Assembly: GCA_903861015.1 (NCBI GenBank)
Contig: CAIOSL010000064.1
Span: forward strand, 1-15,251
Reading direction: 5' to 3'
Length of the DNA stretch: 15,251 nucleotides
DNA from: an uncultured bacterium
Lineage (GTDB): Bacteria > Patescibacteriota > Saccharimonadia > Saccharimonadales > Saccharimonadaceae
Shown here: in pieces, positions 11,419 through 15,251 of the stretch
Layout of the letters: every line of letters begins with the position of its first letter
Position numbering within the stretch: position 1 is the stretch's first letter
Notes under the pieces: generated by a model
Database searches by the model: none
What the model was told of the DNA's origin: nothing
The model's input: the letters and a program-made list of their open reading frames with translations, nothing else
Position numbers and translations under genes: made by a program

Positions 11419-14400
11419 CTAAATAGCTAGATCGACATTCTCGGCAATATCTTGCTCGAGTTCTTCTTCGTCATCGGTATCCCCGTAACCAGCGGCACCG
11501 GTTCCAACTGGAATCTTGCGGCCGATAATTACGTTCTCTTTTAGACCATGCAACCTGTCAACGCGACCACTGATTGCAGCATTGATCAAAACACGGGTTG
11601 TGTCTTGGAATGACGCAGCCGAGAGGAAGCTGTCTGACCAGATCGAAACCTTGGTGATACCTAGTAGCAGCTGGGTGTAGCTGATTAGGTTCTTGCCGGC
11701 AGCGGCTAGTTCCATATTAGCTTCGACAACTGATGCTTTTGATACGATATCGCCGGCAACAAAGATGCCATCACCTGGATCCTCAACCTGAACGCGGCTA
11801 AACATCTGTCGGACGATGATCTCGAGGTGCTTGTCGGCCACGTCTTGGCCCTGAGCAGCGTAAATACGCAAGATCTCGTTGATGATGTAGCGTTGTGTTG
11901 CTTCGGTACCCTTTAGACGCATCAAATCATGTAGATTCAACGAACCGGTAGTTATACGATCACCGGCTTCGATAACTGCACCTGCAGTTACGACAATTTG
12001 TGAAGTACCTGGGACCTCGTAGCGAACTGGTGATCCGGCATTCGCAGCCAAGACCAAAGTATCGCCAGCAACTTCGATGACACCGTCAAATGGAGCAGTT
12101 AGAGGGCGAGATTCGCCTTCACCGGCTGCAATAACGTCGCCAACCTTGATGTTGCTGCCAGATTTAACAACCACGGTTCGGCCTTCAAGCGCAATGCGCT
12201 CGACATGACCAGCCGATGGCGTAACCTGAACGATATACTTTTTGCCATCTTCCCAAATGTCGACCAAACCAGCAACTTCGCTGATATGCGCCTGACCCTT
12301 TGGTGAACGAGCCTCGAACAACTCTTCAACACGAGGTAGACCCTGGGTAATGTCACCGCCGGCCTCTCCACCCTTGTGGAAGGTTTTTAGAGTCAACTGC
12401 GTACCTGGTTCACCGACTGACTGAGCAGCGATGACGCCAACTGGTTGAGCAGCATTGACCAAGTGACCGGTCGACATATCGATACCATAACTCTTGCGTG
12501 GGATGCCACGAAGATTCTTGGTGGTTAGGACTGATTGAATCTTGACGCTCTTGATACTCTCGTCGGCTTCAATTGCTGACGCGATTTCGCGAGTGATGAT
12601 TTGATCGGCTTCGATATAGCCAGGTATGGCCTCGGCTGTGTAGCGACCAACTAGGCGGTTACCGAAGTTAATCATCGTCAGTTCTGACTCGCTGCGCAAG
12701 ATTGCGAAGCCTTCGTCATCACCTTCGACGCTGTCTTCTACCGTAAAGACGTCTTGTGACACGTCAACCAAACGACGAGTTAGGTAACCAGCGTCAGCAG
12801 TCTTCAAGGCGGTATCGATCAGACCCTTACGAGCACCACGTGTTGCCACGAATTGCTCTAGCGAGCTTAGACCGTCCTTGTAGTTCGAGCGGATTGGCAG
12901 CTCGATTTCGCGGTTATTTGAATCCACCACGATACCGATCATAGCCGACGCCCATTTGACGTTAGAGATATCACCACGAGCACCGGAGTTAACCATGACG
13001 CTGATGCTGGTATCCATGTCGCGCATTTTGGTTTGCAAGAAGTCCGCAATCTTGCGGTCGACTGCGCGCCATGCGGCAATTGTCAAGCTGTAACGCTCTT
13101 CGTCAGTGATCAAACCCTGATCGAATTGTTCAGCGATCAACGCGGTTTTGGCATCGCCCTCAACCACGAATCCACTGATCTCGTCAAACTGAACGTAATC
13201 TTGTTGACCGGTTGATACGGCAGCGACTGTCGCAAATCGGAAGGCCAAACCTTTCATACGGTCGGCAGTTTTGGCGGTTGTGACGGCACCGTAATCATTA
13301 AAGATCTTGGCCAACACACGCTTTAGCTGCTTTTTGTTTTGAACCGAGTTATCGTATGGGAAATCGCTTGGCAAGATCTCGTTAAAGAAGACGCGACCCA
13401 AGGTTGTGTTGCGGATTTCACCCTTAAAGAAGACACGGATTGGGCTTTGCAATTGCAAGTGGCCACCATCATATGCCATCTCGGCTTCGTAAATCGAAGT
13501 GTAGGCTTTGGTTTCTTTGGTCTGAGCACTTGGCTTTTCGTAAGTTAGGTAATAGTTACCCAAGACAACGTCCTGACCAATGTTTAGGACCGGCGCACCA
13601 TCAGCTGGCTTTAGCAAGTTGTTGGTTGCACTCATCAGTTCGCGAGCTTCACGCTGCGCATCATCTGACAGTGGCAAGTGAACTGCCATCTGGTCGCCAT
13701 CGTAGTCGGCGTTAAAGCCGTTGGCGACTAGTGGGTGCAACTGAATTGCCTTGCCTTCAACCAATACTGGTTGGAAAGCCTGGATCGACAAACGGTGCAA
13801 TGACGGCGCACGGTTCAACAGAACGTATTTGCCAACAATTACCGAGTCAAGTGCGTCCCATACCAATGCATCGCCAGATTCGATCAAGCGTGATGCTGAA
13901 CGAATATTGTAAGCGTGCTCGTTGCGGATTAACCAGCTGATAATAAACGGCTTGAATAGTTCAAGCGCCATTTGCTTCGGCAAACCACACTCGTTGATCT
14001 TTAGTTTTGGACCAACCACAATTACTGAGCGGCCCGAGTAGTCAACGCGCTTACCAAGTAGGTTCTGGCGGAAACGACCCTGTTTACCCTTTAGCATATC
14101 ACTGATTGATTTTAGACGGCGACGGCCACCGGTTGCATTAACTGCACGGTTGCCTTTAGCGGCGCTATTGTCGATCAAAGAGTCGACTGCTTCCTGAAGC
14201 ATGCGCATTTCGTTGCGGCGGATAACTTCGGGAGCGTTAAGGCTGATCAGTTTTTTCAAGCGGTTGTTGCGGTTAATGACACGGCGATAAAGATCGTTAA
14301 GGTCACTGGTTGCAAAACGACCACCGGTCAATTGCACCATCGGACGAAGATCTGGTGGGATCACTGGCAAAACAGTCATCGTTAGGCTGCTTGGTTTAAT

Positions 14401-15251
14401 ACCAGCAGCTTGCATGCCTTCAAGCATCTTGAGGCGCTTTAACAGTTTCTTCTCGCGTTGGCCTTTAGCCTCGGCAACTTCGGTCGATAGTTTGGCGATC
14501 AAAACTGGCAAATCAATCTCGTCAAGTAAGGCTTTTAGGGCCAAACCGCCCATACCAACTTCGACTAGCTCTTCGTATTCTTCTGGCAAGTTACGGTAAT
14601 CAACTTCGCTGATCAACGCGCCTTTAACCAGGCTGTCCAGTTGAGCTCTTTTAACCAAATAGGTTTCATTTAGCTCTTCGATTTCTTTCGATTGTTGAGT
14701 GGCCAAAACTTTAACGTCAGCACCTTCAGCACTAGCTTCGCGCTCGTAACGAATTTTGATCGCTACTCGGCCGGCTTCAACTTCGGCTTCGATGTCTGAC
14801 AGGTATTGGTCACGCTTTTGCTCGTCAGCCTTCAAAACCACATAGGTCGAGAAGTAGGCGATGCGCTCGAGGTTACGAACAGTGATGCCAAGCAGCAAAC
14901 TCATTGCGCTTGGGGTACCGCGCATAAACCAAATGTGCGCCACAGGTGTAGCCAGAGCAATGTGGGCCATACGTTCGCGGCGAACGATTGATTTGGTGAT
15001 CAAACCACCTTCTTTGTCAACCGCAGCTTCGCGTGAGCGAACACCTTTTAGCTTGTTATCGTGTGGATTAACGTCTTTGACTGGTCCAAAGATACGCTCA
15101 CAGAACAAACCGTCGCGTTCTGGCTTTTGTGTACGATAATTAATCGTTTCAGGTTTTGTAACCTCACCGTTACTCCACTTAAGAATATCTTCTGGGCTGG
15201 CAACAGTTAGGCGAATAGCGTTGAAATCCGAGATTCCATTACTTGCAATTA
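11419..15251 (-). CDS. rpoC: DNA-directed RNA polymerase subunit beta-prime (5' end outside window)
   Basis: This is the largest subunit of bacterial RNA polymerase; 1276 residues are visible and the frame is open at the right edge. At the edge it reads ISDFNAIRLTVASPEDILKW, near the normal N-terminus, so only a few residues are missing. Visible parts, in order, are clamp helices (RVINRNNRLKKLISLNAPE), lid/switch GKQGRFRQNLLGKRVDYSGR, the metal-binding NADYDGDQM with Tyr in place of the usual Phe, SGARGD of the bridge region, trigger loop QLTLKTFHKGG (His kept; usual Met-Arg are Leu-Lys) and C-terminal GLKENVIIGRKIPVGTG. No large lineage insertion is seen in the trigger loop. All eight cysteines of the two standard zinc sites are absent. 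rpoB should lie upstream, beyond 15251. The gene ends at TAG and its terminator lies at 11370-11395. Confidence 0.98.
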   Translation of the reverse strand, partial: IASNGISDFNAIRLTVASPEDILKWSNGEVTKPETINYRTQKPERDGLFCERIFGPVKDVNPHDNKLKGVRSREAAVDKEGGLITKSIVRRERMAHIALATPVAHIWFMRGTPSAMSLLLGITVRNLERIAYFSTYVVLKADEQKRDQYLSDIEAEVEAGRVAIKIRYEREASAEGADVKVLATQQSKEIEELNETYLVKRAQLDSLVKGALISEVDYRNLPEEYEELVEVGMGGLALKALLDEIDLPVLIAKLSTEVAEAKGQREKKLLKRLKMLEGMQAAGIKPSSLTMTVLPVIPPDLRPMVQLTGGRFATSDLNDLYRRVINRNNRLKKLISLNAPEVIRRNEMRMLQEAVDSLIDNSAAKGNRAVNATGGRRRLKSISDMLKGKQGRFRQNLLGKRVDYSGRSVIVVGPKLKINECGLPKQMALELFKPFIISWLIRNEHAYNIRSASRLIESGDALVWDALDSVIVGKYVLLNRAPSLHRLSIQAFQPVLVEGKAIQLHPLVANGFNADYDGDQMAVHLPLSDDAQREARELMSATNNLLKPADGAPVLNIGQDVVLGNYYLTYEKPSAQTKETKAYTSIYEAEMAYDGGHLQLQSPIRVFFKGEIRNTTLGRVFFNEILPSDFPYDNSVQNKKQLKRVLAKIFNDYGAVTTAKTADRMKGLAFRFATVAAVSTGQQDYVQFDEISGFVVEGDAKTALIAEQFDQGLITDEERYSLTIAAWRAVDRKIADFLQTKMRDMDTSISVMVNSGARGDISNVKWASAMIGIVVDSNNREIELPIRSNYKDGLSSLEQFVATRGARKGLIDTALKTADAGYLTRRLVDVSQDVFTVEDSVEGDDEGFAILRSESELTMINFGNRLVGRYTAEAIPGYIEADQIITREIASAIEADESIKSVKIQSVLTTKNLRGIPRKSYGIDMSTGHLVNAAQPVGVIAAQSVGEPGTQLTLKTFHKGGEAGGDITQGLPRVEELFEARSPKGQAHISEVAGLVDIWEDGKKYIVQVTPSAGHVERIALEGRTVVVKSGSNIKVGDVIAAGEGESRPLTAPFDGVIEVAGDTLVLAANAGSPVRYEVPGTSQIVVTAGAVIEAGDRITTGSLNLHDLMRLKGTEATQRYIINEILRIYAAQGQDVADKHLEIIVRQMFSRVQVEDPGDGIFVAGDIVSKASVVEANMELAAAGKNLISYTQLLLGITKVSIWSDSFLSAASFQDTTRVLINAAISGRVDRLHGLKENVIIGRKIPVGTGAAGYGDTDDEEELEQDIAENVDLAI

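Follow-up and report, generated by a model that had tools for sequence, protein, structure and literature searches.

The window analyzed here is the whole of a 15,251-nucleotide stretch of DNA from an uncultured bacterium (contig CAIOSL010000064.1 of assembly GCA_903861015.1). One end of it carries rpoC, the gene for the beta' subunit of RNA polymerase, in which neither of the zinc sites known from Escherichia coli RpoC retains a cysteine. The rpoC frame runs without an internal stop from position 15249 down to its stop codon at 11419-11421. Its 5' end is cut off at the contig edge, 15251; a handful of residues lie past that edge, and by alignment with E. coli none of them is a zinc ligand. 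The features of the gene are as follows (the samples named in the second line are described below).

11419..15249, minus strand: rpoC, RNA polymerase beta' subunit, 1,276 amino acids; open frame matching TIGR02386, with five Pfam Rpb1 domains

14986..15072, minus strand: former zinc site 1, residues 60-88, placed by E. coli alignment; without Cys in 80/80 named loci and 31/31 other order genomes

12709..12738, minus strand: former zinc site 2, first ligand loop, residues 838-847 (EDSVEGDDEG), placed by E. coli alignment

12478..12534, minus strand: former zinc site 2, CxxxxxxCxxC block, residues 906-924, placed by E. coli alignment

Against the NCBIfam model TIGR02386 the window protein scores 1393.2 bits, above the cut-off of 963.5. 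The catalytic NADxDGD motif is present as NADYDGDQM (residues 513-521), and every residue of it except Y516 is invariant in alignments A1 and A2. A single match to PF04997 was found in this genome (a 728,040-base assembly) and a single rpoC match in each of 32 genomes of the order, indicating that rpoC is single copy. To define the ligand columns, we aligned the window protein with E. coli RpoC from an annotated RefSeq record, taking C70, C72, C85, and C88 (site 1) and C814, C888, C895, and C898 (site 2) to be its zinc ligands; the E. coli protein has Cys at all eight of these presumed places. Site coordinates were computed from residue numbers and are offset, by anything from a few bases to a few dozen, from those in a preliminary description of this DNA, which had been made from the letters alone.

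That description had proposed that both RpoC zinc sites are lost and that the two remaining cysteines lie elsewhere, and the alignment bears it out on both counts. All eight ligand columns hold residues other than Cys in the window protein, whose 1276 residues include two cysteines, in FCERIF and NECGLP. At site 1, the N-terminal zinc-binding domain at the RNA exit, the protein reads DVNPHDNKLKGVRSREAAVD (15016-15075). This region aligns without gaps, and the ligands are exchanged as C70 to P62 (15064-15066), C72 to D64 (15058-15060), C85 to V77 (15019-15021), and C88 to E80 (15010-15012), so that the four-Cys signature of the RNA polymerase zinc-binding domain (CxC plus CxxC) is absent. At site 2 the protein reads TTKNLRGIPRKSYGID (12478-12525), with C888 replaced by T910 (12520-12522), C895 by P917 (12499-12501), and C898 by S920 (12490-12492). 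The first ligand of this site had been described as Ser in EDSVEGDDEG. The loop does lack Cys; as the counterpart of C814 the alignment prefers V841 (12727-12729), with S840 also possible and a one-residue gap close by. The window protein contains neither the first-loop Cys nor the CxxxxxxCxxC block that define site 2.

The distribution of the loss was read in two samples. The named loci are the nearest 80 of at least 566 relatives (at least 587 stretches, one genome per species, with window RpoC as the query), a set that leans to close kin; their titles are mostly Saccharibacteria, the rest being Patescibacteria, bacterium, or a doubtful label. The second sample comes from a phylum-wide draw of 379 genomes, 368 of them with an RpoC match. 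From it rpoC was read at 136 loci: the window, every other genome of its order in the draw (31), and 104 genomes outside the order, the last picked non-randomly for family spread from matches with listed coordinates. Order and class here denote kinship groups, which the source names on related records suggest are Saccharimonadales and Saccharimonadia; f-numbers denote families, G-numbers genomes, and L-numbers loci. Two of the named loci, L033 (titled Chloroflexi, 82% identity) and L043 (titled Nomurabacteria, 71%), encode RpoC of the Saccharibacteria type and are probably mislabeled or mixed bins.

Neither site was present in any of the 80 named loci or in any of the 31 further order genomes, in line with the earlier suggestion of a lineage trait, the lineage being Saccharibacteria. 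In every one of the 31, site 1 is wholly gone and site 2 is gone as a site. Among the named loci, the C70 column holds P in 79 and I in one, the C72 column D in 80, the C85 column V or I in 80, and the C88 column N, E, K, or D in 80. The first site-2 loop is without Cys in 79/80 named loci and 31/31 order genomes, and C895 and C898 are replaced in 80/80 and 31/31. The C888 column is still Cys in one named locus of the 80 and in three of the 31 order genomes. One Cys occurs in the second site-2 block in 7 of 33 rows (32 order loci plus the window counted again), and three of these lie at the C888 column. The preliminary description had spoken of simultaneous loss: this agrees with the data, in which no site-1 intermediate was seen, but is not proved; Cys persists at C888 in the three order genomes just mentioned.

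In the phylum beyond this order, 102/102 genomes have an intact site 1 (two more are cut there) and 100/103 an intact site 2 (one is cut), and all five genomes from other orders of the same class keep both sites. Loss of site 1 was seen solely in this order, and loss of or damage to site 2 occurs in other parts of the phylum as well (3/103). These exceptions, in two other families, are G008 (L132) and G030 (L348) of family f20 and G242 (L311) of f49. They resemble the window protein (G030 in part) in having lost or damaged site 2, and they differ from it in keeping site 1 intact. G008 also has fewer cysteines in S14, L31, L32, and DnaG; together with its site-2 loss, this suggests that f20 may be undergoing a partial zinc loss of its own, the second in the phylum.

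Protein searches, each of which scored about 8,000 candidates sharing most words and listed the best 120, gave a matching picture. When the search was seeded with the site-1 region of the window, 120/120 among the matches listed lacked both sites; when it was seeded with a class-sister RpoC, 120/120 among the matches listed had both. An outgroup seed returned 86 new proteins, 85 with both sites and one unreadable at site 1. The near universality of both sites among bacteria, which the preliminary description had asserted, holds for the phylum sample outside the order. Other phyla were sampled sparsely, through E. coli RpoC and five solved-structure alignments (of 135 matches); the four site-1 cysteines are present in all five alignments, and the site-2 triad is whole in two of them and cut off in three.

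In a FastTree phylogeny of 135 RpoC sequences with the site columns masked, the 32 sequences of the order form one clade (support 1.0). It is nested within a clade of the class (support 1.0), and its sister, G094, has both sites intact. Because the order is monophyletic in this tree and its sister keeps both sites, the loss looks vertical and confined to one stem. A single vertical loss on the stem of the order is the plain reading of these sequences.

No indel interrupts the site-1 block in 111 sequences (the 80 named loci and the 31 order genomes). Inside the order (31 sequences), mean pairwise identity is 85.0% over this 29-residue block and 68.2% over the remaining RpoC; outside it (101 sequences), the values are 79.9% and 50.7%. 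Since the block is more identical than the rest of the protein, constraint on it appears to persist, by a smaller margin than outside the order. K or R stands at K66, K68, and R71 in 80/80 named loci and at R73 in 79/80; these residues are the counterparts of E. coli K74, K76, K79, and R81. E74 and A76 never vary in the named loci (80) or the other order sequences (31) and are absent from the 102 readable others. D64, E74, and D78 are invariant across the 80 named loci, and H63 is replaced by N or Y in several members. In E. coli, site 1 has been linked to RNA contacts at the exit channel, where its domain binds HK022 put RNA with L78 and K79 among the contacts (PMC9378689). We infer that the nucleic-acid face of site 1 survives and that a D-K-N/E-G turn and charge pairs replace the zinc.

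Structure prediction had been put forward as a check in the preliminary description. We obtained two AlphaFold2 models, one from 38 order sequences (mean predicted local distance difference test score [pLDDT], 57.3) and one from 64 mixed sequences (mean, 66.8). Both drew strands 75-77/83-85, the hairpin expected around the former second knuckle, but at a block pLDDT under 45; over the N-terminal 98 residues, which include the site-1 block, block pLDDT was 24-41, and with such scores the models cannot tell whether the fold of site 1 is retained. Around site 2, the 64-sequence model reached a pLDDT of 90 (residues 901-910) and 84 (911-920). Its input alignment included Cys-bearing homologs, and for this reason these values are weak support.

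A further check proposed at the outset was for Cys-free ribosomal proteins, and these are present in genomes of the order, including the window's own, which encodes Cys-free S14, L31, L36, L33, and S4. We read the zinc ribosomal proteins in 30 chosen genomes: 15 of the order's 32 (one being the window's), all 5 that the draw held from the rest of the class, and 10 others, 4 of them from f20. In the order, S14 is a long form without the two CxxC pairs and with 0 or 1 Cys (15/15), L31, read from its assumed start, and L36 are both Cys-free (15/15 each), S4 has no Cys at its zinc end (15/15; by blastp, with 25/25 loci found over all groups), and L33 is Cys-free in 13/15. The rest of the class keeps Cys in L31 and L36 (4/4 with a match) and in S14 (3/4, G318 having the long form), and is Cys-free in S4 (4/4), L32 (4/4), and L33 (3/5). 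The six others outside f20 keep Cys in S14, L31, L36, and L32 (6/6), in L33 (3/3 with a match), and in S4 (4/6). The four f20 genomes are mixed: L31 has 2, 2, 4, and 4 Cys, S14 has 4 except in G008, where it has 2, L33 is Cys-free, and no L36 match was found. On this pattern, S4, L32, and most L33 became zinc-free earlier in the class, and the change in L31, L36, and the two RpoC sites came at the order stem. One genome, G168, has two L31 genes (L198 and L220), both Cys-free.

The loss extends to the primase DnaG. Its zinc ribbon is without ligands in 15/15 order genomes checked (L368 and 14 other loci), the region being of the type SPF..EKTPSFxVSPxKxIWHDFSS. It is also ligand-less in class families f11 and f12, perhaps in parallel. 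The ribbon is intact in f9 and in 6/6 other outgroups and is down to one Cys in 2/4 genomes of f20; no DnaG match was found in G094. The RpoC substitutions co-occur across the order with ligand-less S14, L31, L36, S4, and DnaG, and the rest of RpoC is conserved. DnaJ, by comparison, keeps all eight of its cysteines in each of the 12 order genomes whose match passed the cut-off; among the 15 checked, no DnaJ zinc domain over the cut-off was found in G000, G109, and G244. (Of 24 DnaJ loci, 19 were read, including all 12 of the order, as were 6 weaker, UvrA-like matches.) The UvrA-like frames, so named from length and motif, keep four Cys in 3/3 order genomes read. Retention of these DnaJ and UvrA-like cysteines indicates that the loss of zinc sites is selective.

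We consider it probable that the RpoC zinc sites were exchanged in place on the stem of the order, as part of a wider process in which structural zinc was selectively stripped from gene expression. On the stem of this one Saccharibacteria order, beta' would have lost both structural zinc sites by in-place substitution while its domains were kept. The site-1 knuckles, CxC and CxxC, have become P-x-D and V-D-K-N/E-G, a turn that could close a hairpin metal-free, and the basic residues facing nucleic acid have been retained; at site 2, the ligands have given way to small or turn-forming residues. With both beta' sites lost, the core polymerase would be zinc-free, and an equivalent of the zinc-binding domain would still stand at the RNA exit. 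The wider removal would take in S14, L31, L36, S4, mostly L33, and DnaG, and its result would be that less zinc is needed for essential gene expression. The altered polymerase probably binds no zinc at the former sites and retains its fold and function. Judged from the sequences, structural zinc appears to be dispensed with in part of the core machinery of gene expression. We lean, if by a little, toward the fuller statement that the order has rebuilt RNA polymerase, primase, S14, L31, L36, and S4 as zinc-free, has kept a metal-free polymerase domain, and still uses zinc in dispensable chaperone and repair proteins. If this is true, these steps of replication, transcription, and translation would no longer have zinc as a limiting cofactor.

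As for the cause, the parallel with zinc-free ribosomal proteins makes zinc economy the most likely driver. Such proteins have been discussed in that light (PMC3087516 and PMC6103462), with the cause left open in PMC3087516. Several observations weigh against this account of selective zinc removal. The ZnuA family (PF01297) shows no pattern, with a match in 3/15 genomes of the order, 1/5 of the rest of the class, and 2/10 others and none in the window's genome; it is neither enriched nor peculiarly missing, and the epithet "zinc-scavenging" used in the preliminary description finds no support in it. The site-1 block surpasses the rest of RpoC in conservation by less in the order (85 versus 68%) than outside (80 versus 51%), and both structural models have low pLDDT over that block. 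L33 still has three Cys in G031 and one in G190 among the 15 order genomes, and L32 gave a match in none of the 15. Some of the loss is older than the order stem or parallel to it, namely, that in S4, L32, and most L33 (class), DnaG (f11 and f12), and S14 (f12). DnaG is moreover a low-copy protein, which misfits a pure idea of sparing the big zinc sinks. Finally, the median number of non-ligand cysteines in RpoC is 3.5 in the order versus 5 in 91 other phylum members (range, 1 to 12).

The last figure bears on a different driver, one we regard as unlikely though worth weighing: selection against Cys-zinc clusters, as prone to oxidation, or against cysteine as such, in place of a shortage of zinc. 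Every loss that we recorded is of a Cys-rich site, and zinc-thiolate sites are known targets of oxidants. However, the non-ligand RpoC cysteines of the order (2 to 7; median, 3.5) resemble those of five class sisters (2 to 7; median, 4), RpoB has 1 to 5 Cys in 13 chosen order loci (some of whose frames are perhaps edge-cut) and 1 to 3 in 8 others, and the Cys-rich DnaJ and UvrA-like sites are kept. The RpoC and RpoB counts and the kept sites argue against general avoidance of cysteine; they do not argue against oxidant pressure on essential zinc sites.

It is very improbable that the former sites still bind a metal through other residues, such as D64, H63, E74, or D78. The invariance of D64, E74, and D78 in the named loci would fit such a role, but the ex-ligand positions hold P, V, and N/E, and carboxylates alone are poor structural zinc ligands. 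H63 was rejected as a replacement ligand since it is not conserved. We give equally little credence to the view that the zinc-binding domain is decaying, being unneeded in an organism with little regulation. The small genome (728 kb) and the reduced conservation excess of the site-1 block in the order would agree with decay, whereas the lack of any indel in 111 sequences, the above-average conservation of the block, and the retention of its basic face speak against it. Sequencing or assembly error, a frameshift, or a second RpoC copy with intact sites has a negligible chance of explaining the pattern: although the contig ends inside rpoC, the frame is open, all 80 other named assemblies agree, and one rpoC match was found here and in each of the 32 order genomes, so that the frameshift, assembly error, or overlooked cysteines that the preliminary description had named as grounds for abandoning its claim did not materialize. 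Artefact, a paralog, general cysteine loss, and domain decay were each tested and set aside on the evidence just given.

Compared with known systems, window RpoC is like E. coli RpoC in its five Rpb1 Pfam domains, single copy, equal length across site 1, basic residues, and RRERMxHI motif, and unlike it in having none of the eight zinc ligands. It is also like the C+/C- ribosomal proteins, in which the Cys ligands are lost and the protein is retained (PMC3087516 and PMC6103462); as with their zinc-free (C-) variants, it is a homolog in which the cysteines have been replaced. Unlike those proteins, which in many species are Zur-switched paralogs, here a single-copy polymerase subunit has been altered in place, and no zinc-form RpoC paralog to switch to was found in this genome or in any of the 32 of the order. 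Zinc-free ribosomal proteins prevail in Alphaproteobacteria, Bacteroidetes, Chlamydiae, and others according to a table in PMC3087516, and they are already known. A zinc-free bacterial RNA polymerase is apparently unreported, with priority not established: a search of the open-licence PMC literature, which leaves subscription journals mostly uncovered, showed no account of a bacterial RNA polymerase, or of Saccharibacteria, having lost zinc sites.

Bacterial RNA polymerase is treated as having the two beta' zinc sites as a fixed feature, and a link between site 2 and assembly of the enzyme has been drawn in E. coli. A natural enzyme without both sites would make testable the role of zinc beyond folding and the in-place replacement of a zinc ribbon, and the order has cultured members. 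The removal of zinc sites together from transcription, translation, and priming would offer a clear evolutionary case, as well as a starting point for learning which metals these epibionts need.

The remainder of the window contains three further features.

1506-8639, plus strand: 2,377-amino-acid protein with PA14 domains and a lectin match below the cut-off (Pfam)

8624-8935: 103-amino-acid open frame with no Pfam match, after the 2,377-amino-acid protein

9961-11111, plus strand: transposase-like pair, a helix-turn-helix frame and an integrase-core frame (Pfam)

By eye, the 2,377-amino-acid protein has a signal-like start and YD-like repeats. Its appearance is that of a surface protein or a polymorphic repeat protein, with the 103-amino-acid frame as its small partner. 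The transposase-like pair, which we take to be IS3-like, is convergent with rpoC and ends about 300 bases from its stop codon.

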